DNA of 33,865 nucleotides, taken from the IMG/VR virus record IMGVR_UViG_3300046369_000819, positions 1 to 33,865 of that record; one strand, given 5' to 3'. The notes under the pieces are model-generated. The model did not search any database and was not told the origin of the DNA. It was given only the letters and a program-made list of their open reading frames with translations. Shown piece after piece: positions 11,151 through 29,318 of this stretch (position 1 is its first letter; every line of letters starts with the position of its first letter). The stretch is from a virus. The position numbers and the translations under genes were made by a program.

Positions 11151-11510
11151 ATGACTAGAGCCAACAAAACCAACACTATAAAAAAGAAATTATTAGAAGC
11201 TCTTGAGCTTTCATTAGGTGTGGTTACAACAGCTTGCGAAAACGTAGGTTGTAACCGAGCAACCTATTATGATTATTACAATAAGGATGAAAAGTTTAAA
11301 GCAAAAGTTGATGAGTTACAAAATGTAGCTTTAGATTTTGCAGAGAGCCAACTGCATGAGCAAATAAGAGATGGCAATACAACAGCAACAATATTTCTAC
11401 TAAAAACAAAAGGAAAAAAAAGAGGTTATGTTGAAAGGCAAGAAATACAACATGACGGCTCTATTGAAAGCAAAATTATTGAATGGACACCAGCAAACCA
11501 AAAAGAGTAA
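11151..11510 (+). CDS. terS: Terminase small subunit
   Basis: A 119-residue protein directly before TerL. The N-terminus has a helix-turn-helix (LGVVTTACENVGCNRATYYDY), the DNA-recognition part of small terminases, followed by an oligomerisation helix (AKVDELQNVALDFAESQL) and KTKGKKRGYVER, a block common in phage TerS of this type. It recognises the packaging site on phage DNA and hands it to TerL. It overlaps TerL by 28 nt. Confidence 0.8.
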   Translation: MTRANKTNTIKKKLLEALELSLGVVTTACENVGCNRATYYDYYNKDEKFKAKVDELQNVALDFAESQLHEQIRDGNTTATIFLLKTKGKKRGYVERQEIQHDGSIESKIIEWTPANQKE

Positions 11511-12664
11511 CTGAGTTTTGTAATAAGCAATTTTATCAAGCAGTCAACTCTAAAGCTAGATTAAACATATTTCAAGGGGGTACAAGATCTGGTAAATCCT
11601 GGAGCTTGATGCAATATTGTTTGTATTTAATGACTACTGAAAAGAAGCCAATAACTATTAGCATAGTTAGAAAAACATTACCAGCATTAAAGAGATCTGT
11701 ATTAAGGGATTTTCTACATATATCAAGGCAATTAGGTATTTACTGGAATGGGGTGCATAATAAGTCAGATAATACATTTGAATATAAAGGGCATACACTA
11801 GAGATGTTTAGTGCTGATGATGCACAAAAGATTAGAGGATCCGCTAGGGATTATCTTTTTTTATCGGAAGGAAATGAACTTTTTTTTGAAGATTTCCAGC
11901 AGTTAGCCATGAGAACCAGGAAACAGATATATATTGATTTTAACCCATCAGATCCTGTTCACTTTATTTATGACCTGGCTGAGAGAGATGATGCTAAGCT
12001 GTTTATATCCACATACAAAGACAATAAGTTTTTGCCTAAAGAGTTAGTTGATGAAATTGAAAGGATTAAAGAACGAGATCCAGATTACTGGCGAGTGTAT
12101 GGCGAGGGTCAAAGAGCTGTATTTAGTGAGAAGCAAATATTTAAAAATTGGAATTACATACCCTATAAAGATTTTCCAGAATTAGATGATGAGGTGCTTG
12201 GATGTGATTTTGGATTTTCCCAAGACAATTTAGCTATTGTAAAAGTTGGTAAACACAATAACAGCTTATACATTCATGAGCTTATTTATAAAAAAGGAAT
12301 GACAAACAGAGATATTGCTCAGTTTATTAAAAAGCAAAAGCTAGATGATATGCTAATGTATTGTGATAGTGCTGAGCCAAAAAGTATTGAGGAGCTTAGA
12401 CAAATGAGTATATGGGCAAAGGGTGCTGTAAAAGGTCAAGGGAGTATTAATGCTGGTATTAGCTTATTAAAAGAATTTGATATTTATGTTAGTGAGGAAT
12501 CATCAAACATATTAAAAGAACAACAAAGCTATATTTATGATGAGCTAAAAGATGGCACAATAATCAATAAACCAAAATCTAACCAAGCGGACCATTTGCT
12601 AGATTCGATCAGATATTGTGTTTACAGTAGGTGGCGAAATAGAAATGATTTTTTTGTTGTATAA
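11483..12664 (+). CDS. terL: Terminase large subunit
   Basis: A 393-residue packaging motor and nuclease. The Walker A motif is GGTRSGKS (32-39). The Walker B region is YLFLSEGNEL (124-133), in which the usual acidic pair is replaced by Ser-Glu, Glu129 being the candidate catalytic residue. The RNase H-like nuclease domain shows GCDFGFSQDN, MYCDSAEP and DHLLDSIRY, each carrying an acidic metal-binding residue. The length fits the short Terminase_3/PBSX-type proteins. It cuts concatemers and pumps DNA into the prohead through the portal encoded next. Confidence 0.92.
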   Translation: MDTSKPKRVTEFCNKQFYQAVNSKARLNIFQGGTRSGKSWSLMQYCLYLMTTEKKPITISIVRKTLPALKRSVLRDFLHISRQLGIYWNGVHNKSDNTFEYKGHTLEMFSADDAQKIRGSARDYLFLSEGNELFFEDFQQLAMRTRKQIYIDFNPSDPVHFIYDLAERDDAKLFISTYKDNKFLPKELVDEIERIKERDPDYWRVYGEGQRAVFSEKQIFKNWNYIPYKDFPELDDEVLGCDFGFSQDNLAIVKVGKHNNSLYIHELIYKKGMTNRDIAQFIKKQKLDDMLMYCDSAEPKSIEELRQMSIWAKGAVKGQGSINAGISLLKEFDIYVSEESSNILKEQQSYIYDELKDGTIINKPKSNQADHLLDSIRYCVYSRWRNRNDFFVV

Positions 12665-12709: not shown

Positions 12710-14461
12710 ATGGCAACTTTCTTTGATAAATTTAAATCACTAATAAATACAAAATCCCAAAATACAAGTGAACAATACAACAGAGCTATTTATAATTGGC
12801 TCGGTAATACTATTGTTTGGAATACTGAAAATGATGAAACTTATATTAATGATGGTTATAGAAAAAATGCTACTATTTATTCTATTATAAACCTTATTAC
12901 AAAGGCGGCATCTACAATTCCATATCACATTTATGAAAAGGTTAATGATGGTGATTATAAAAGATATAAGGCATTATCAAGTGGCATTGGTGATCCTAAT
13001 GTTATGATCAAAGCTCAGATGTTAAAGAAACACGCATTAGTTGAATTAGAGCATACAGAACTACATAAACTATTGGAACGACCAAACCCAGCTCAATCTT
13101 ATTCATCTTGGATTACTGAAATGATTGCATTTGGTAAACTAACTGGCAACAGATACATTTATGGTATTGGTCCAGAAACTGGTGATAACATTAATAAATA
13201 TACTGAGCTTTACATTATGCCCAGCCAGATTATGGAAATAAATTCTGGGGGTATAATGAAGCCAGTTGAATCATATACTATTGAATACAATGGTACATAT
13301 CATATTCCAGCTGAACAGATGTGCCACATTAAAGATTTTAACCCATACTTTGATGGTACTGGTTCACATCTTTATGGACAATCACCATTGAAAGCTGGTT
13401 TAAGATCAATGACTACTAACAATGAAGCAGTTGAAAGTGGTGTTAAGTTTTTACAAAACCAAACAGCTAGAGGTTTATTAATGAGTGATGAGGGTGATTT
13501 AAATGAGGTACAAGCTCAACAATTAAAAGATAAATTTAGAAAAGATCATCAAGGCAGTAAAAAAGCTGGTGATATTATTATTACACCAAAGAAATTATCT
13601 TGGGTTAACTTTGGATTAAATGCATCTGATATGAGTTTAATAGAACAATACAATGCATCTATTAAAGATTTATGCAACATATATAACGTACCCGTCACGC
13701 TTTTAAATAATACAGAATCTAGCACCTATAATAACGTTAAAGAAGCTAAAAAAGCATTATATCAAAATTGTGTTATTCCAGAGCTTTTAAAAATACAAGA
13801 TGAATTAAACAGATGGCTAGCTCCAATGTATGGTGATAATATTTGCATTGAATATGATTTTAGTGTTATTCCAGAATTACAAGAAGAAACTGACAAAGTG
13901 GTTGATCAAATGTCAAAGGCATGGTGGCTAACTCCAAATGAAAAGAGAGCCGCAATGTCGTATGCACATGATGAGGACAATCCAATACTAGATGAGTATT
14001 ATATACCAGCTAACTTAATTCCAGCATCTGGTAGTGATATTGATTTTGCAGATCCACAGCCATTAGCTGATGAGGATAGTAAAAAAAAAAATCCAATAAG
14101 TAATATTGAGGTCAAAGATAGCGTTAAATTAAAAGCATCTTATAATGATTATCCACAAAGTGCTAGTAATAATGCTAAGCGAATGATTGATTGGCGTGAA
14201 AAATATGGCAGAGATGAGGTGAGAGGTGGCACATCGGTTGGATGGCAAAGAGCATCGAGTTTGTCAAAAAGGGAAAGTTTATCTGAAAGCACTGTTGCTA
14301 GAATGGCACAATTTAATAGGCACAGAGAGAATGCAACTATTGATCCCAAATTTAAAGATACCCCCTGGAAAGATAATGGCTATGTAGCTTGGAATTTATG
14401 GGGTGGTACAAGTGGTGTTAACTGGGCAATAAAAAAAATAAAACAAATCAGAGATGAGTAA
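12710..14461 (+). CDS. Portal protein with extra C-terminal domain
   Basis: A 583-residue protein. Residues 1 to about 430 are an HK97-type portal: RKNATIYSIINLITKAAST near the N-terminus, LLERPNPAQSYSSW, GNRYIYGI, and YNVPVTLLN in the crown region. Residues about 460-583 form a separate domain (YPQSASNNAKRMIDWREKYG, GTSVGWQRASSL, ARMAQFNRHR, LWGGTSGVNWA) of a type more often found attached to prohead proteases or other head proteins. The portal forms the dodecameric DNA channel; the appended domain may bind scaffold, protease or DNA. It overlaps the MuF gene by eight bases. Confidence 0.88.
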   Translation: MATFFDKFKSLINTKSQNTSEQYNRAIYNWLGNTIVWNTENDETYINDGYRKNATIYSIINLITKAASTIPYHIYEKVNDGDYKRYKALSSGIGDPNVMIKAQMLKKHALVELEHTELHKLLERPNPAQSYSSWITEMIAFGKLTGNRYIYGIGPETGDNINKYTELYIMPSQIMEINSGGIMKPVESYTIEYNGTYHIPAEQMCHIKDFNPYFDGTGSHLYGQSPLKAGLRSMTTNNEAVESGVKFLQNQTARGLLMSDEGDLNEVQAQQLKDKFRKDHQGSKKAGDIIITPKKLSWVNFGLNASDMSLIEQYNASIKDLCNIYNVPVTLLNNTESSTYNNVKEAKKALYQNCVIPELLKIQDELNRWLAPMYGDNICIEYDFSVIPELQEETDKVVDQMSKAWWLTPNEKRAAMSYAHDEDNPILDEYYIPANLIPASGSDIDFADPQPLADEDSKKKNPISNIEVKDSVKLKASYNDYPQSASNNAKRMIDWREKYGRDEVRGGTSVGWQRASSLSKRESLSESTVARMAQFNRHRENATIDPKFKDTPWKDNGYVAWNLWGGTSGVNWAIKKIKQIRDE

Positions 14462-16016: not shown

Positions 16017-17216
16017 ATGGAAGAAAATGTAAAAAATCAGCTTGACCAATTAGGCAACATCATTGATGCTAAATTGGAAAAAGCTCATGGACAGGCAGTT
16101 GATTCAGCAACTGGTAAGGCAGATGTGGCTCTAAAAGGAGAGATCGCAAACCTAACACAAAAATTTACTGAGAGAATGGATGCTATTGAAGTTTCTAATA
16201 AAAAGAGATTTGAAGCATCTAAAAGAGAAGATAAATCATTTGGTGGTAACTTAACAAAAGCTATCAAAGAGGGTGCTTTAGATTCAATGAGAAATGGATC
16301 ATCAAGATCCGCAAATTTTTCTATAAAGGCGGATATGACTGTTGCGGCTGACTTTACTGGGGATGTAATTCCACCACAAAGAATACCAGGATATAAGTTT
16401 GATCCTACAACTCCACAAAACATAAGACAATTAATCCCAGTTGGTTCAACTAACTCTGATGTTGTTAAATATGTAAAAGAGAGTGGATATTCAAATGGTG
16501 CAGCAGCGGCAGCTGAGGGTGCAACACTTGCACAATCAGATTTCGATATGACTGCAACTGATGCTAATGTTAGAAAAATTGGAACGTACTTAAGAATCTC
16601 TGATGAGATGATGGCTGATACTCCACAAATTTCTAGCTATTTATCAGCAAGAGTACCAGCTAAATTAATGGAAGTTGAAGATGACCAAATATTAGGTGGT
16701 AATGGATCAGCTCCAAATTTAGATGGATTTTATAATTCATCATCTGACTTTGATGTTTCAAGTAATGGTAAATTTTACCAATCAGTTGAATCAGCAAACG
16801 AATTTGATGTATTAGTAGCGGCTTTGAACCAGTTACAAATTTCTAACTACAAAGCTGACTATATTATGTTAAACCCAACTGATTTTCACAAGATCTTATT
16901 ATTAAAAGATAGCACCAACAACTATCTTAAAGATCAAGTATATCAAGGGTTACAACCTAATTTCTTAGGTGTGCCAATCGCTGTTAACAACGAAGTAAAT
17001 CCAGGAACATTTTTTGTTGGAAACTTTGGACAAGCGGCTCAATTATGGGTTAGAGATAACGTTTCAATAGAGTTCTTTAGCGAAGATGGAACTAACGTTA
17101 GAGACGGATTTTTAACTGTAAGAGTAAAAGAGAGAGTTGCATTAGCGACTTATTTACCAAATGGTATTATAAATGGAACATTCAGTACTGCAAAAGCGGC
17201 ACTAGAAACACCATAA
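16017..17216 (+). CDS. Major capsid protein (HK97 fold)
   Basis: A 399-residue HK97-like capsid protein. Residues 1 to about 95 are a charged coiled coil (delta domain), probably removed by the protease just upstream. The shell domain follows: AADFTGDVIPPQR, RQLIPVGSTNSDVVKYVKE (the E-loop region), LRISDEMMAD, VEDDQILGGNGSAP and, near the end, GFLTVRVKERVALATYLPNG. The gene ends in a strong terminator, fitting a highly expressed product. Confidence 0.95.
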   Translation: MEENVKNQLDQLGNIIDAKLEKAHGQAVDSATGKADVALKGEIANLTQKFTERMDAIEVSNKKRFEASKREDKSFGGNLTKAIKEGALDSMRNGSSRSANFSIKADMTVAADFTGDVIPPQRIPGYKFDPTTPQNIRQLIPVGSTNSDVVKYVKESGYSNGAAAAAEGATLAQSDFDMTATDANVRKIGTYLRISDEMMADTPQISSYLSARVPAKLMEVEDDQILGGNGSAPNLDGFYNSSSDFDVSSNGKFYQSVESANEFDVLVAALNQLQISNYKADYIMLNPTDFHKILLLKDSTNNYLKDQVYQGLQPNFLGVPIAVNNEVNPGTFFVGNFGQAAQLWVRDNVSIEFFSEDGTNVRDGFLTVRVKERVALATYLPNGIINGTFSTAKAALETP

Positions 17217-17236: not shown

Positions 17237-17263
17237 AAAGGGGTATTTATTACCCCTTTTTTT
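17237..17263 (+). terminator. Terminator after capsid gene
   Basis: AAAGGGGTA (17237-17245) pairs perfectly with TACCCCTTT (17251-17259), five-base loop, followed by a T run to 17263. Confidence 0.92.
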
Positions 17264-17618: not shown

Positions 17619-17642
17619 GGGGGTGTAAAAACCCCCTTTTTT
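17619..17642 (+). terminator. Terminator after P2 gene
   Basis: GGGGGT (17619-17624) pairs with ACCCCC (17631-17636), six-base loop, followed by six T residues. Confidence 0.88.
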
Positions 17643-18016: not shown

Positions 18017-18121
18017 ATGTATAAAAAATTTCTTAAACAAGATCCTAACAACTGGAAATGGCTTATTGCTATTCATGTAGTTGTTTATTCAATAATGTTA
18101 ATCTTAATGTTAGATATATGA
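18017..18121 (+). CDS. Small single-pass membrane protein (34 aa)
   Basis: ATG 18017 (five bases after the preceding stop) opens a 34-residue frame ending TGA at 18119-18121, overlapped ATGA-style by the next gene. After a charged start (MYKKFLKQDPNN) the whole remainder (WKWLIAIHVVVYSIMLILML) is a single membrane helix. Small phage membrane peptides like this often block superinfection or alter the host envelope; the role here is an inference. Confidence 0.55.
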   Translation: MYKKFLKQDPNNWKWLIAIHVVVYSIMLILMLDI

Positions 18122-18414
18122 ATCGTAAAAACTTAAAATTAAAAGATGCATTCAAATTAGCTATGGCTGATATGACAGATGAGCTATGTTTAGCTTGGCA
18201 ACCTATAAATGATTATGTTATTGATAATACATTACATGATCTAGCAGTTAAGTTCAGTAATAATTGGCTAGAACATCATAGGGTTTTATATTCTAATGTA
18301 GATTGGAAACAACCAGTTTCTAAAACGTATTTAAACACTAAAGAACAAAGGCAGTTAAATAGTAAGCTAGGAATTACTAAAACTAAAGGAATAATAAATT
18401 GGTATAAAAATTAA
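18118..18414 (+). CDS. Hypothetical protein (98 aa)
   Basis: The start ATG 18118 is chosen because it overlaps the stop of the membrane peptide as ATGA; the longer frame from 18058 would run entirely through that gene. The 98-residue product is helical (LKDAFKLAMADMTDELCLAW, HDLAVKFSNNWLEHHR) and basic at the C-terminus. No family recognised. Coupling to the membrane peptide suggests a joint function. Confidence 0.55.
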   Translation: MNRKNLKLKDAFKLAMADMTDELCLAWQPINDYVIDNTLHDLAVKFSNNWLEHHRVLYSNVDWKQPVSKTYLNTKEQRQLNSKLGITKTKGIINWYKN

Positions 18415-18421
18415 TTTAACA

Positions 18422-18512
18422 GAGGGGTGTACAAAACAATCAAGGTGGATAGCTATAAGGTGTACAACTTTTAACCACTGCAACGGAGCAAGAGAGCCAA
18501 CCCACACCCCTC
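18422..18512 (+). ncRNA. Unexplained structured, GC-rich leader RNA candidate
   Basis: GAGGGGTGT (18422-18430) is perfectly complementary to ACACCCCTC (18504-18512), closing a 91-nt element. Inside, GGTGG (18444-18448) can pair with CCACT (18475-18479), one G-U pair. The 115-bp intergenic stretch is clearly richer in GC than anything near it. GGTGTACAA occurs twice (18426-18434 and 18459-18467), 33 bp apart. No T-run follows, so it is not a terminator, and no tRNA T-loop is present. It precedes the start at 18530 by 17 nt. It could be a cis-regulatory RNA, a stable small RNA or, at the DNA level, a paired protein-binding site. Confidence 0.5.
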
Positions 18513-18529
18513 ACATTAAAAGAAAAATT

Positions 18530-18679
18530 ATGAGCTACAATAAAAACAAGTTTGAGCATAACTTAAAAAAAGCTAAAAGACAAAATAAAGATGAAAGGTT
18601 ACTACTAAATAATATTTTTAGTGGGTATTCAAAAACTCTAATTGAAATTTGTAACCCAAATACATTAAAAGATGAATAA
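18530..18679 (+). CDS. Small basic hypothetical protein (49 aa)
   Basis: ATG 18530, 17 nt after the structured leader, opens 49 residues (MSYNKNKFEHNLKKAKRQNK..., ending NPNTLKDE). Very basic N-terminal half, probably a helix. The frame is open further upstream through the leader but has no ATG there. It overlaps the next gene by eight bases (ATGAATAA). No family recognised. Confidence 0.5.
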   Translation: MSYNKNKFEHNLKKAKRQNKDERLLLNNIFSGYSKTLIEICNPNTLKDE

Positions 18680-18972: not shown

Positions 18973-19011
18973 TAATTTTGTTTTGTTTTGTATAAATCTG
19001 TGATTGTTAAA

Positions 19012-19043
19012 AAGCCAGTTGTTTAGTCAGCTGGTTTTTTTTT
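19012..19043 (+). terminator. Terminator ending the small-gene operon
   Basis: GCCAGTTG (19014-19021) pairs with CAGCTGGT (19028-19035) with G-U pairs, six-base loop, followed by a run of nine T residues. Confidence 0.75.
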
Positions 19044-20218: not shown

Positions 20219-20550
20219 TGGATGCTGGAAAATTAGATACTAGAATTGGTGTATATAGATTAAATCAAACAACTGATGGTTATGGTGGCTTTAGTGATTC
20301 ACCTACTTTATTAACAACATTATGGGCAAATGTTACTTATTTAAGTGGCGAAATGAAAACAGAAAATGGTAGTCGAAAACAAGCTCAAAAAATAAAATTA
20401 ATATTTAGAGATTTGGCTTTAGTTTCACCTAACAATTATTTTGAATATTATTTACAATTTTCTGGTGGTGCTTATAAATATAGGATTGTAAATATGTTTG
20501 AAAGCACACCTGATTTTTATACAACCATTGAAGCTGTAAGTTTTGCATAA
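20218..20550 (+). CDS. Head closure protein (SPP1 gp16-like)
   Basis: A 110-residue protein of the phage head-tail joining family: GKLDTRIGVYRLNQTTDGYG near the N-terminus, LWANVTYLSGEM, and a C-terminal strand KYRIVNMFE. It closes the channel after packaging and joins the tail. Its start overlaps the connector stop and its own stop overlaps the next start, so the neck genes are translated as a chain. Confidence 0.8.
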   Translation: MDAGKLDTRIGVYRLNQTTDGYGGFSDSPTLLTTLWANVTYLSGEMKTENGSRKQAQKIKLIFRDLALVSPNNYFEYYLQFSGGAYKYRIVNMFESTPDFYTTIEAVSFA

Positions 20551-20915
20551 TGAAAAGTAAATTAAAATTTAATAAAAGAGATTTAGATAATGTTGAAAAA
20601 ATATTAAAGAATTTAAGCATTGTAGTTAAAAATGCAAGTGACAATAGATTAAATAGAGCTGCGGCTGAAATGACAAAAGAAATAAAATTAGGATCGCCAG
20701 TTGATAAAGGTGATTTAAAAAAAACTACTCATTATGAAAAAACAAGTAAGGGTGTTTTTATAGAATCACCTATGGATTATGCAAGTTTTGTTGAATTTGG
20801 AACAAGTAAACAAAAACCAAATCCCTATTTTTTCAATCCTATTAGAGTTAGGTTTAGAAAATTTGTTGATGATTTAAGGCGAAAGGTTAATAAAGAAATA
20901 AAAAAAAGCAGTTAG
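20550..20915 (+). CDS. HK97 gp10-like neck/tail completion protein
   Basis: A 121-residue protein fitting the HK97 gp10 family: an N-terminal helical stretch (DLDNVEKILKNLSIVVKNA), then AAAEMTKEIKLGSPVDKGDL, FIESPMDYASFVEFGTSKQ and PNPYF. VEFGT followed by P..F is the family's hallmark. It acts at the head-tail junction. Confidence 0.85.
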   Translation: MKSKLKFNKRDLDNVEKILKNLSIVVKNASDNRLNRAAAEMTKEIKLGSPVDKGDLKKTTHYEKTSKGVFIESPMDYASFVEFGTSKQKPNPYFFNPIRVRFRKFVDDLRRKVNKEIKKSS

Positions 20916-23330: not shown

Positions 23331-26300
23331 ATGGCAACAACATTCACTGGATTAAGGGTTCAAGATACTTATAATGCAATTTTAAAAATTGGCGACAATT
23401 CCAACCTTAGCGGTACTGCAAAAATTCTTAGCGATGGTGTTGGTAATAGTTCTAGTATCTATTTATCTACTACGAGATTTGGAATAGGCATAACTCCAGC
23501 ATATCAATTTCACACTAGCGGAAACGCTAAAATTGGTGGCAATCTTATAATATCTGGCGATTTAACAGTCAATGGGGATCTCACTTATTTAAATGTAACT
23601 GATTTACAAGTAGAAGATCCTTTAATTAAATTAGCAAAAGACAATACATCAAATACTTTAGACATTGGATTTTTTGGTAAATATGTTGAATCAGCTACAA
23701 CAAAATATACTGGTTTATTTTGGGATGCAAGTACTGATAAATTTAGATTGTATGAGGGTTTACAAGTTGAGCCAACAACAACTGTCGATGTAACTGGAAC
23801 TGGATATACTAGATCACTTTTAAATGCTGATATAGAGGGTAACGTAACTGGAACTGTTAGCTCATTATCTAATCATGACACAAATGATCTGGTAGAGGGA
23901 TCTGTAAATTTATATTTTACAACCAATAGAGCTAGAGCTAGTTTTACTGCTGGTACTGGAGTTACAATAACTGATGGCGAAATTGCTATTGGTCAAGCTG
24001 TTGCTACTACAAGCAATGTTAATTTTAATAGAATTACAAGTAGTGAAGATATAAGATTTGATGGTACAAGCACTAGATTTAGATCAGACACTAGTTTTGA
24101 TTTTTTATTCACAGATGGTAACGCTCAAATTTTAAAAACTTTAGGGGTTGCGGCACAAACAGCATATAACGGTAATAGTGCTGCTTCTGGAATGTTTAAT
24201 GCTTTAAATGGTTACGCAGTTGGAACAGGAACAGGAACTACTGTTATTGATTCATCAAGAAATTTAACAAATATTGGTACTGGAAATTTTAGCGGTCAAG
24301 TAACTATTCCAGAAACTCCAACCGCTGATGCTCATGCGGCATCCAAAAAATATGTTGATGATAATACTGGTGATGCTGAAGTTGCTAAAAGAATTGATGT
24401 AACTGTTAAAAATGTAAGTGGTGGTTCACTTGCAAAAGGGGTTGTTGTCCATGCGGCACCAACAGCAACACCACCGAGTGGAAATGTTATAGAGGTTGTT
24501 CCAGCTGATGCAAATGTAGTGGCTAGTATGCCAGCTATTGGTGTACTAAACGAAACTATTGCAGATGAAGCTGAGGGTGAAGCTGTAATGTTTGGAGCAG
24601 TAAGTGGGATAGATACATCTAGTTTTAGTATAGGAGATGAATTATATGTGTCCGAAACTGCTGGTGAATTTACAGCTACAAAACCAACTGCATTTAGCAG
24701 TCAAGTACAAAAAATAGCAGTAGTAATAAAATCTCATGCTAGTAATGGATTAATAAAAGTTTTTGGTGCTGGTAGGGCAAATGATGTTCCTAACAGAGTT
24801 AATAGGGATATGAATTTTACTGATGGCAGTAAATTAGAGTTCGGAACTGATAGCGACTTAGAAATATATCATGATGGAACAGATGGGTATATTGATAATA
24901 TTAATGGCGAGCTTATTATTCAAAATAATAGTGATGATAAAAAAATAATATTTAAGTCAGATAATGGTATTGGTGATATTACAGAATACTTTAGAATAGA
25001 TGGTAATATTAATAGAAATGTTATAACTGTAACTACTCAATTAAATGACAATGTACCAATGATATTTGGTGATGGTGTTGGGCGACCAAGTATAAAATAT
25101 GATTCAACAGCTAGTCAATTATTTATTAGTGGCGAATCTAAGTTTTTAAATGATGTGCATTTTATTGGTGATCTATATGGTAAATCTGTTAATGATGAAT
25201 ATTCTAATTTATATAAATTTGGCGGAATATATTTTACTTGGGATAGTGATTCTTATGGCACAAACATACAGCATTCAATAAGATCAACCTACAATGATGT
25301 TTATGGTGATAATTTAACTATAAATTCTTATGGTAATGTTAGAATAAATATAGACAGTAATAACAATGGTGGTAATGAAAAGTTTGAAATTGGTTCACAC
25401 ACTACTGGATCAGCAAACTTATTATTTAGTATTGATGAAGCTGGTTATGGTAAAATGTTTGGTGATTATGAAATAACAGATCAATTATTTTTAGATCGTA
25501 TAGAAACTGAAACTGGTAATTATGCTGGTTTTAGATTTAAGGCAACTGATGGCACTAATAAATTTAAAGCATGGGCATACGATAGTGCAAATAATAATAT
25601 ATATGTTTATAATTATAATACTAACGATGAAGTTTTAAGAATTGATAATGATAATATAACTTATCTAACAAATAAACTAAAAGTTGGACCGACTGGAACA
25701 GCACCTACTTTTAATGTTGAAAATGTAGCAAGTGGCAGTAATAGATATTACGTTGAATCTACTAATAATGATACTGCTGGTATTTATATGGTAAACAAAG
25801 ATGCTGGAACTATGACATCTAATGGTACAATTAGAGTTAATAATACTGGTTATATGCAGTTTTTTACTGGTACAACATCAGCTAGTATTACTGTTGATAT
25901 TGGACCAGCTGGTGTGCTTTCAACCTTTTTAAGTACAAACTCACAAGATAGTATTAGATTTTATAACACTGATGGTAATTACTCGTATATAAGAACAACA
26001 GAGGCAAGTAATACAAATAATGTTTGGTTTGATGGGCATTTAGGATCAACTATGTGGCATGCTTGGGATAATCCAGGTTCATTACGAACAGCTGGTGTTT
26101 ATACAACACATTATTTTGGAGTTGGTCGAGGTACTACCACTGAATCTGTCGAGATTAACAGAGGTTCTATAATACAAAAAAATTCTGCTGGAACTGATAT
26201 AAATAAACTAAATGTAAGTGGTGTTAGTTATATTAATGCTGGTAATATTGGTATTGGAGTTACATCAGCTTTTGCTCCTATAACAATAAATAAAGCTAGT

Positions 26301-29300
26301 AATGAAGGTGCTTTAAATGCTGGTGTTGCAATAGCATTTGATGGTGGTGATTATGGATCATATGGTTATAGATTAAAAGCTAATGGAGCAAATTATTATC
26401 AAGTACTTTATGATGGTTCTGCCATTAATTGGAAACATTATGAATCTAGTACTTATAAGACAAAAATGTCTTTGCTTAATAATAGTAGATTACAAATTAA
26501 CAGAGATGCTACCAGCACATATCATGGTTTTGAATTATTAACAGATGGCACAATAGATTGGACAATAGGACAAAATTCTAATGGTGGCTTTATGATTTTT
26601 GAAGATGGTCAAGCATCAACTACTAGATTAACAATAAAAGATGGAGGAAATATTGGAATCAATACAGCAGATGCAACAATAATTTCTGGCGGTAAATTAG
26701 TTACACATTTAGGAACTAACTTAAATATTGCTCATAATACAACAACAATAAATTCAGCAGTTGTACCTAGAATAAGCTCTTTTAATGATGCTGTAACTAC
26801 AACCGAGCCACTAGCCATAAATGGTTCACCAATTTATTTGACTAGCAGTGATGTAAGAATAACAACCTCTAGCAGACAAACAACAGCTCCTTTATCAATT
26901 AGAAATAATGGTAGTAATATTGAGTTTGGTCATAATAATACAAGCTCAGGATATTTTGGAACTGTTGGATCAATGTATAATAATGGAACTCCTTTTATAT
27001 CTTTTAGTTGCTCTAGTGATTCAACAATAGGCGGCAATAATTTTAGAACTTATGGATTTAAAGGAAATGTTATACATGGTGAAACAAATGGTGATTTAAA
27101 GTTTTCACAAGCAACAACCGCAACTAGTGCAAGTCAAAGTTTAACTACTAGAATGGTTTTAAAAGCTGATGGGAATTTATATACTACTGGATTTATTGGA
27201 GTAGGTAATACAACATCACCACGAGGTAAAATTGATTTTGGGAATGCTGTAAATACAGATTTATATTTATATAGCTCAGGTACTGATTATTATGGTTTTG
27301 ACATGAGGCAATACGATTCTGGTCCTTATGGTACAAATATATTTTCTGGTAATAATGGTGTTATAAGGTTTAGAACTGAAACTGGCGGCACAAAAGCAAC
27401 TAGAATGTTAATTGCTGCTAATGGCACAGTTACGATGTATGGTTTGTTAAATGTTAATGATCTAGGAATCACAAATAATTTATCTGTTGGTAATTCAGCA
27501 AGGTTTGAAGGTACATCAACTCCAATAACTATTGGGGATGGTTTTGGTTATGGTGGCTCGGCTACAATATGTAAAAGAAATGCCGCTTTATATTTACAAT
27601 ATAATAATGGTCAAGCATCAACACAATTAAATATTGGTGGTGGCGGAACTGCAACTACTATACATGATGATCAGAATTCAGATTATCATTTTGGCTCTGG
27701 TGAAAATAGTTACTTTACAGAAAAATTAGGAGTTGGAGTTACCACACCAGATGCCAAAGTTGATATTCACATGAGCGATTCTAATGGTGCTTATGGTAGA
27801 GGTGAAAATGGTAATTTAAATTTACAAAATACCAATACAGCAAACACAGAGGGTGGCTGGATGTCTATTAGTGGTTATATGGGCAATCCCGCTCTTAATG
27901 GTTACTATCCAATGGGTGCTATTAGCGGAGGTAAAACAAGTGCCGCCGCAAATGGTAATTATGGCGCTTATTTAACATTATGGACAACAGCTGGCGGTTC
28001 AAATGGTGTTGGTGAAGCAAACTCTGGAATGTATGAAAGGGTTAGAGTGACACAATCTGGTGCAACTGGTATTAGAACTGGTAGTAATGTTAAAACAACT
28101 TTCCATGTTGATTCTTATGGTTTAGCAAATACAACTTTTGGTGGCACTAACGTAGGATCAATGAGTATATCTGATGGTAATTATAGCGGTGATAGAACTC
28201 CATGTATAGATTTTAGATCACAAAATCGTACTCATCCATTGGCAAAAATTGGAGTTACAATAGCAAACTCTGGTACATTTATGAAATTTGGTACATCAAA
28301 CAATTATAATAGTGGAGTTACAAACCAAGCCATGACCATAAATCCTAGCGGAAATGTAGCTATAAATTTAACAGATACCAGCTATAAATTTCAAGTAAGT
28401 GGAGAATCACAAATAGCTGGAATTAATTTTGAGGTTGGAAATTATCCTGGTATTAGATTTAGAGCAAATAATGATAATGTAAACCGATGGAAGTGGGGGT
28501 TAGAAACACCATCAGCTAATCAACTTTATTTATACGATTATGGTGCTAATACATCAATATTACAATTTGTTCAAAATGGAAACATTTATTTTAACCCAAC
28601 TGGTAATGTTAGTATTGGTATTGCTCAGGGTGGTGCAAATTCTTATAAATTTTCAGTTAAAGGCGGTGGAGCTGATTTAAATGGTGTTAGAGCTGGTCAA
28701 GATTGGCACATAGCAAATAGAGCTGGTATTAGATTAGATTCTAAAGGCACATCATATCCATCAGACATATTATTTGGACATACTGCGGCAGCAAATCAAT
28801 CTAGCTGGACAGGTGTTTACTGGGCGATGAGTTCAAGAGGAACATCATCATCAGTAGATAATAGCTTTTATTTTTATAGAGGTGGCGGTCAGCCATCACC
28901 TTATAATTCGGAATCAGTTATAATGTCTTTTAGAAATAATATGATGGTGGGTATAAATAAAGATACACCAGGTTATACTTTAGATGTTACTGGCTCAATA
29001 AGAGCAACTGGTGATGTTATTGCCTTTTCAGATAGGAGAGTAAAAGAAAATATAGTTACTATTAATAGTGCTTTAGAAAAGGTTACTAAATTAAGAGGGG
29101 TTAAATATAGTAGAAAAGATATAGATGATAAATCAACTAAAGTTGGTGTTATTGCACAAGAAGTTTTAGAAGTATTGCCAGAGGTTGTTGAAAAAGATGA
29201 AGAAGGTAATTATTCGGTTGCCTATGGTAATATGGCTGGAGTGTTTATTGAAGCCATAAAAGAATTAAAAGCAGAGGTTGATAGTTTAAAACAAGAAATA

Positions 29301-29318
29301 AAACAATTAAAAAAATAG
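23331..29318 (+). CDS. Tail fibre with C-terminal S74 intramolecular chaperone
   Basis: A 1,995-residue fibre or spike, 18% of the genome. Residues 1-150 contain the segment LTVNGDLTYLN and DLQVEDPLIKLAKDN, common in marine phage tail fibres. Residues about 350-480 form a globular region (VKNVSGGSLAKGVVVHAA). A degenerate repeat of the form G-I-G-x(5)-P-x(3)-F-x-V-x-G recurs near residues 49, 782, 970, 1105, 1287, 1465, 1674, 1758 and 1872. The last ~97 residues are the Peptidase_S74 chaperone: FSDRRVKENI (Ser1900, the expected self-cleavage point), VGVIAQEVLEVLPEVV and a coiled coil. The fibre binds the host surface and sets host range. Confidence 0.9.
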   Translation: MATTFTGLRVQDTYNAILKIGDNSNLSGTAKILSDGVGNSSSIYLSTTRFGIGITPAYQFHTSGNAKIGGNLIISGDLTVNGDLTYLNVTDLQVEDPLIKLAKDNTSNTLDIGFFGKYVESATTKYTGLFWDASTDKFRLYEGLQVEPTTTVDVTGTGYTRSLLNADIEGNVTGTVSSLSNHDTNDLVEGSVNLYFTTNRARASFTAGTGVTITDGEIAIGQAVATTSNVNFNRITSSEDIRFDGTSTRFRSDTSFDFLFTDGNAQILKTLGVAAQTAYNGNSAASGMFNALNGYAVGTGTGTTVIDSSRNLTNIGTGNFSGQVTIPETPTADAHAASKKYVDDNTGDAEVAKRIDVTVKNVSGGSLAKGVVVHAAPTATPPSGNVIEVVPADANVVASMPAIGVLNETIADEAEGEAVMFGAVSGIDTSSFSIGDELYVSETAGEFTATKPTAFSSQVQKIAVVIKSHASNGLIKVFGAGRANDVPNRVNRDMNFTDGSKLEFGTDSDLEIYHDGTDGYIDNINGELIIQNNSDDKKIIFKSDNGIGDITEYFRIDGNINRNVITVTTQLNDNVPMIFGDGVGRPSIKYDSTASQLFISGESKFLNDVHFIGDLYGKSVNDEYSNLYKFGGIYFTWDSDSYGTNIQHSIRSTYNDVYGDNLTINSYGNVRINIDSNNNGGNEKFEIGSHTTGSANLLFSIDEAGYGKMFGDYEITDQLFLDRIETETGNYAGFRFKATDGTNKFKAWAYDSANNNIYVYNYNTNDEVLRIDNDNITYLTNKLKVGPTGTAPTFNVENVASGSNRYYVESTNNDTAGIYMVNKDAGTMTSNGTIRVNNTGYMQFFTGTTSASITVDIGPAGVLSTFLSTNSQDSIRFYNTDGNYSYIRTTEASNTNNVWFDGHLGSTMWHAWDNPGSLRTAGVYTTHYFGVGRGTTTESVEINRGSIIQKNSAGTDINKLNVSGVSYINAGNIGIGVTSAFAPITINKASNEGALNAGVAIAFDGGDYGSYGYRLKANGANYYQVLYDGSAINWKHYESSTYKTKMSLLNNSRLQINRDATSTYHGFELLTDGTIDWTIGQNSNGGFMIFEDGQASTTRLTIKDGGNIGINTADATIISGGKLVTHLGTNLNIAHNTTTINSAVVPRISSFNDAVTTTEPLAINGSPIYLTSSDVRITTSSRQTTAPLSIRNNGSNIEFGHNNTSSGYFGTVGSMYNNGTPFISFSCSSDSTIGGNNFRTYGFKGNVIHGETNGDLKFSQATTATSASQSLTTRMVLKADGNLYTTGFIGVGNTTSPRGKIDFGNAVNTDLYLYSSGTDYYGFDMRQYDSGPYGTNIFSGNNGVIRFRTETGGTKATRMLIAANGTVTMYGLLNVNDLGITNNLSVGNSARFEGTSTPITIGDGFGYGGSATICKRNAALYLQYNNGQASTQLNIGGGGTATTIHDDQNSDYHFGSGENSYFTEKLGVGVTTPDAKVDIHMSDSNGAYGRGENGNLNLQNTNTANTEGGWMSISGYMGNPALNGYYPMGAISGGKTSAAANGNYGAYLTLWTTAGGSNGVGEANSGMYERVRVTQSGATGIRTGSNVKTTFHVDSYGLANTTFGGTNVGSMSISDGNYSGDRTPCIDFRSQNRTHPLAKIGVTIANSGTFMKFGTSNNYNSGVTNQAMTINPSGNVAINLTDTSYKFQVSGESQIAGINFEVGNYPGIRFRANNDNVNRWKWGLETPSANQLYLYDYGANTSILQFVQNGNIYFNPTGNVSIGIAQGGANSYKFSVKGGGADLNGVRAGQDWHIANRAGIRLDSKGTSYPSDILFGHTAAANQSSWTGVYWAMSSRGTSSSVDNSFYFYRGGGQPSPYNSESVIMSFRNNMMVGINKDTPGYTLDVTGSIRATGDVIAFSDRRVKENIVTINSALEKVTKLRGVKYSRKDIDDKSTKVGVIAQEVLEVLPEVVEKDEEGNYSVAYGNMAGVFIEAIKELKAEVDSLKQEIKQLKK

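Follow-up and report, generated by a model that had tools for sequence, protein, structure and literature searches.

The contig analysed here, one IMG/VR virus record that was studied over its whole 33,865-nt stretch (the window), comes from a tailed phage with HK97-type head genes. Its gene map includes a terminase large subunit (11483-12664), a portal (12710-14461), a major capsid protein (MCP; 16017-17216), a tail-completion protein (20550-20915) and a tail fibre (23331-29318). The element that we focused on (18422..18512, plus strand) is located 3' of the capsid gene; the surrounding island consists of small ORFs that match nothing in Pfam. The element lies between an upstream ORF of 98 aa (18118..18414, plus strand) and a downstream ORF of 49 aa (18530..18679, plus strand), neither of which has a match in Pfam. 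This capsid-to-connector accessory island, which is bordered by intrinsic terminators (17237-17259, 17619-17636 and 19009-19040) that are conserved whether or not a relative carries the RNA, looks like a hot spot of gene shuffling.

In the single sequence, the element is closed by a perfect 9-bp stem with arms GAGGGGTGT (18422-18430) and ACACCCCTC (18504-18512) separated by 73 nt, and its G+C content, correctly noted earlier as unusual, is 48% over 91 nt versus a window mean of 30%, a value equalled by 0.14% of 91-nt windows. As a single-sequence chance event such a stem is only moderately rare: of 200 dinucleotide shuffles made of the window, 10 contain a comparable pair. Folding z-scores range from -1.5 to -2.4 when the element is taken with 0-10 nt of flank, and wider flanks give -1.0. 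This doubt is removed by comparison, since compensatory change has kept the closing stem, P1, in 23 distinct homologues. The original prediction of an unexplained structured RNA at this site is thus borne out, the stem covarying in homologues and Rfam offering no match. That the element has no T-run after the stem and no tRNA signature also holds: the stem is followed by ACATTAAAAG and was not picked up by a terminator scan, which argues against an intrinsic terminator, and ARAGORN detects neither a tRNA nor a tmRNA. By contrast, the proposed protein-binding role of a repeat, GGTGTACAA, which does occur twice (at 18426 and 18459, start-to-start 33 bp), is not supported. The repeat is not conserved among homologues, its first copy lying within the variable P1, where GGATCGACAA and GGGTCAACAA are found instead, and its second being altered in L015 and L126 (L-numbers are labels of the homologous or related loci compared).

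Comparative material came from two sources. A search with the capsid protein led to six element-bearing contigs along with many that lack it, and pattern scans of viral contigs raised the total to at least 25 distinct versions (~95 nt) in other IMG/VR contigs, which together with the window form subfamily S1; its covariance model matches the window at 18420-18514 with 118.5 bits. The same scans exposed a second, diverged subfamily, S2, with eight versions. Pair analysis of S1, carried out on 23 distinct rows, reveals compensatory changes of the kind that the original prediction had proposed to look for in the stem: five of the nine P1 pairs have changed on both sides (for instance, G-C to A-U and C-G to G-C), and the signal collapses when the partner is slid by one to three columns. 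Since the sequences are related, the null was simulated on trees, with 1000 alignments for each of two trees (all columns and non-stem columns) that preserved per-branch substitutions and column rates. The 30 double-change cells observed are reached by 0 of 1000 simulations on either tree, the null maximum being 19, and no simulation reaches the observed paired fraction. In a tree-aware test, helix pairs make up five of the eight top-scoring column pairs, including P1 columns, and the best single-pair E-value is a modest 0.01. The helices are therefore kept by compensatory change beyond phylogenetic expectation, as in structured noncoding RNAs. Only part of the helix set is backed by covariation, as P3 displays one-sided changes only. 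Furthermore, G-U cells outnumber A-C cells in both subfamilies (S1, 49 to 4; S2, 24 to 1), and therefore the functional strand is the plus strand, co-directional with the genes. Judged by these comparisons, the element is an RNA on the coding strand.

Its architecture, as established by the alignments, combines a variable closing stem of 8-10 bp with an asymmetric internal loop that hardly varies and a hairpin arm that can be replaced. The 5' strand of P1 (18422..18430) pairs with 18504..18512, and is followed by the 5' strand of the internal loop, ACAAAACAATCAA (18431..18443), whose AACAATC is common to S2. P2 is formed by GGTGG (18444..18448) and CCACT (18475..18479); L032 and L091 show a compensatory change here, from U-A to C-G. 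Between P2 and P3 lies an invariant self-complementary stretch, ATAGCTAT (18449..18456), of which 18450-18451 may pair with 18472-18473. The P3 hairpin, AAGGU-GUACA-ACUUU (18457..18471), was defined by RNAalifold and pair counts; its consistent, one-sided changes include A-U to G-U, plus G-U to G-C in L238. Its loop presents a self-complementary hexamer, TGTACA (18461..18466), which is a candidate kissing loop. The 3' strand of the internal loop, GCAACGGAGCAAGAGAGCC (18480..18498), contains CAACGGAGCAAGAGAGCC, which is identical in S2. Variation is almost absent from the core of the internal loop, ACAAAACAAUCAA / CAACGGRGCARGAGAGCC; conservation sits in the centre of the element, while the stem ends vary. 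On either side there is a conserved A/T flank, AATTAATTTAACA (18409..18421, including the upstream-ORF stop codon at 18412-18414) on the left, and a conserved A/T leader (18513..18529) preceding the next start codon on the right. A pseudoknot between the ATAGCTAT bulge and the core (GCU/AGC) was considered and dropped, as it is impossible in S2.

What S2 has in common with S1 is AACAATC in the 5' part and CAACGGAGCAAGAGAGCC in the 3' part; the P1 sequence and the hairpin arm are unrelated. Most S2 versions are matched by the S1 covariance model with E-values of 1e-5 to 2e-3 in 0.68 Mb, the outliers at E 0.2 being L197 and L198, in each of which an additional hairpin lies between P1 and the core (L197:1340-1463 and L198:7187-7310; UUGCA..UGCAA and UGCAAC..GUUGCA). 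These scores are not independent evidence because the shared core was used to fetch S2. The pairing of P1 is independent: it extends over 10-11 bp in S2 despite the different sequence, and was not selected for. S2 sits upstream of a DNA polymerase gene most similar to those of crAss-like phages, and this polymerase, the sole pointer to the hosts, makes Bacteroidota likely candidates; the content of the carrier contigs, which resembles that of marine phages, together with general knowledge of IMG/VR samples, suggests that they are largely marine. The S2 slot is occupied by another structured RNA (GGGAGGAAAA...GUAAU...CAGUGCUCCC, then UUGUUUU) in three polymerase-bearing relatives (L300:2788, L302:2776 and L303:2786, plus strand), with no Rfam match in L302 and L303, and often by a plain intrinsic terminator in more distant ones.

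Searches for a known identity were negative. Rfam 15 (4227 families, curated threshold), a comparison that reaches described families only, has no match to the element in the window, L107, L208, L186, L188 or L197, and at a permissive threshold it returns chance-level matches alone (E up to 10). INPHARED searched by blastn with S1 and S2 gave no matches or chance matches only. One pattern run against GTDB (84,980 species genomes) gave six matches, none of which is the element, at least four of the six sharing a coding peptide, DWNGAREP, and the rest being without the surrounding structure. A looser viral pattern revealed no further subfamilies, weak covariance-model matches (L021, which is inside a gene, and others) look like chance, and no description of the motif was found in the literature searched, in which coverage of subscription journals is thin. 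A degraded gene is not supported, there being no conserved reading frame across the S2 core among L194, L197 and L186, and neither is a riboswitch, the downstream ORFs encoding unrelated small proteins with no single-pathway association. On these comparative grounds, the RNA family is new: it is real, matched by no Rfam family, and recurs in unrelated environmental phage groups.

The genomic distribution of the element is that of an accessory gene. S1 occupies the capsid-to-connector interval in capsid-group phages, where it is found in 17 of 88 MCP-to-connector islands, and elsewhere it precedes structural and exonuclease-like genes. At clean empty sites (in L121, L004, L132, L140 and others), the RNA and the ORF upstream of it are both missing. 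In L128 that ORF is retained and a different gene takes the place of the RNA, and therefore the RNA is not tied to that ORF. Other phages with the element likewise have unrelated ORFs where the window has its downstream ORF. Small genes do adjoin the element in the window, as the original prediction had pointed out, but the coupled set that it described is merely one context of many, since neighbours differ between phages. The immediate spacing, on the other hand, is constant. In each of 30 distinct loci, the upstream ORF (57-118 aa) has its stop codon 1-12 nt ahead of P1, and 29 of the 30 have their next ATG 28-32 nt past GAGAGCC irrespective of the ORF, usually 15-18 nt from the end of the element. 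This rule concerns S1, because the S2 leader is longer and different. From these comparisons, the element emerges as a portable accessory module, gained and lost between ORFs, with no fixed gene partner.

The terminal loop suggests a further property. S1 loops read UGUACA, UGCGCA (L126, L137 and L222) or UGCGUA (L015, self-complementary with G-U), and the unrelated arm of S2 ends in GCGCGC, so every loop version seen in either subfamily is self-complementary and the palindrome expected of a kissing loop is retained; this argument involves few independent changes and was spotted after the fact. The pattern suggests that the loop might mediate dimerisation by a kissing interaction. A hairpin with a six-base self-complementary loop is also the dimerisation initiation site of HIV-1, in which some subtypes have GCGCGC, i.e., the same hexamer as S2, but the genome and sequence context are unrelated and the loop idea alone is in common. 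GOLLD, ROOL and OLE are structured noncoding RNAs of bacteria and phages (GOLLD and ROOL are phage-borne) that are homo-oligomeric, with kissing loops among their contacts and symmetric loops that covary as palindromes (PMC12286853). Exchange of an internal dinucleotide with preservation of the palindrome is the signature that supports intermolecular kissing loops in OLE and GOLLD (PMC12286853). However, these RNAs are hundreds of nucleotides long versus ~91 nt here, there is no Rfam similarity, and oligomerisation of our element is a prediction. If the loop does dimerise, the element would be a compact and easily studied relative, in spirit, of phage RNA cages.

What could such an RNA do? Because of its fixed intercistronic position, exchangeable neighbours and highly conserved unpaired core, we regard it as a module complete in itself that serves some general task, and not as the regulator of a particular gene. 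The reading that we tentatively prefer, which falls somewhat short of an even chance, is that of a new small structured RNA family of environmental, largely marine phages that acts in cis between cistrons. The RNA would act at the boundary of two cistrons, folding right after the upstream ribosome leaves and presenting, 15-18 nt ahead of the next start codon, a core that is specifically recognised, and it might thereby insulate, process or license translation of the following accessory gene. The recognising partner could be a host factor, a small molecule or the RNA's own catalysis, and two copies could pair via the self-complementary arm loop. Placement in cis is proposed because the spacing to the stop codon and ATG holds with unrelated downstream ORFs. 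Against it, compact genomes and a minimal A-rich ribosome-binding leader travelling with the RNA could yield the same spacing, and identical covariation and portability would be expected if the RNA were excised from the transcript and acted in trans. The latter reading, a discrete and probably homodimeric noncoding RNA cut from a polycistronic accessory transcript, for instance directed against a host factor as a decoy or in counter-defence, is a close second in our ranking, although taken by itself it is rather doubtful. It would account for the accessory-gene-like presence and absence without fixed partner, for a core conservation that far exceeds the needs of a simple stabilising hairpin, and for a loop self-complementarity that outlasts sequence change as in the symmetric kissing loops of OLE and GOLLD (PMC12286853). 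Yet it does not require the constant stop- and start-codon spacing, and no promoter (sigma-70 patterns only) or terminator of its own was recognised around the element.

The element could also be a new self-cleaving ribozyme separating the upstream from the downstream message, a reading that we consider improbable. Small self-cleaving ribozymes such as hatchet, pistol and twister occur intergenically in phages, and the element shares their general architecture, with a variable outer stem, a large conserved asymmetric internal loop, an exchangeable hairpin arm and a gene-independent intergenic site. It differs in that it matches no Rfam ribozyme, circular permutations are not seen and no cleavage site can be inferred. 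The remaining two readings have far less in their favour. A DNA site, either an integron-like cassette recombination site (attC) or a protein-binding inverted repeat, would explain a portable, structured palindrome a few nucleotides past the stop codon of an ORF, the clean cassette-like empty sites and a left flank, ATTTAAC, resembling RYYYAAC. It is nevertheless very unlikely. Integron attC sites, the substrates of the IntI integrase, have conserved end boxes and a variable centre, whereas here the centre is conserved and the ends vary; the one-strand G-U excess points to RNA, L128 has the ORF without the element, and no integrase was seen among the subset of window ORFs scanned. Least probable of all, by a little, is a processive antitermination RNA letting polymerase read through downstream late-operon terminators, as does HK022 put, a small phage antiterminator RNA encoded in the transcript. 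Strong intrinsic terminators do lie 3' of the element in the window (19009-19040) and in other element-bearing MCP-group phages. However, terminators do not track with the element: element-less relatives carry the same ones in the same places, which is why we disfavour this reading, and no terminator was found within 1.5 kb downstream in L108, L208, L091 or S2.

As a source of structured RNAs, phages are rich and still poorly charted, and the element combines comparative support, no Rfam match and a sharply conserved core. Unusually, unrelated phages gain and lose it in the manner of an accessory gene. If the core were catalytic or bound a host factor, the element would represent a new RNA class. 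The boldest version of this idea, namely that the element is a phage RNA machine of a new class, portable and self-associating (a new ribozyme class or an RNA counter-defence factor), which spreads between unrelated phages as an accessory gene, is one that we would at present rather doubt than back. Among the neighbours of S1, a 57-59 aa ORF (MYFNSHHYETLNPDAYWDR...) with no match in Pfam or INPHARED lies directly upstream of the element in L015, L091, L103, L107, L108, L208, L212 and L221, which are otherwise unrelated phages. L208 also harbours a tRNA gene (L208:2023-2095), ~0.9 kb upstream of the element.
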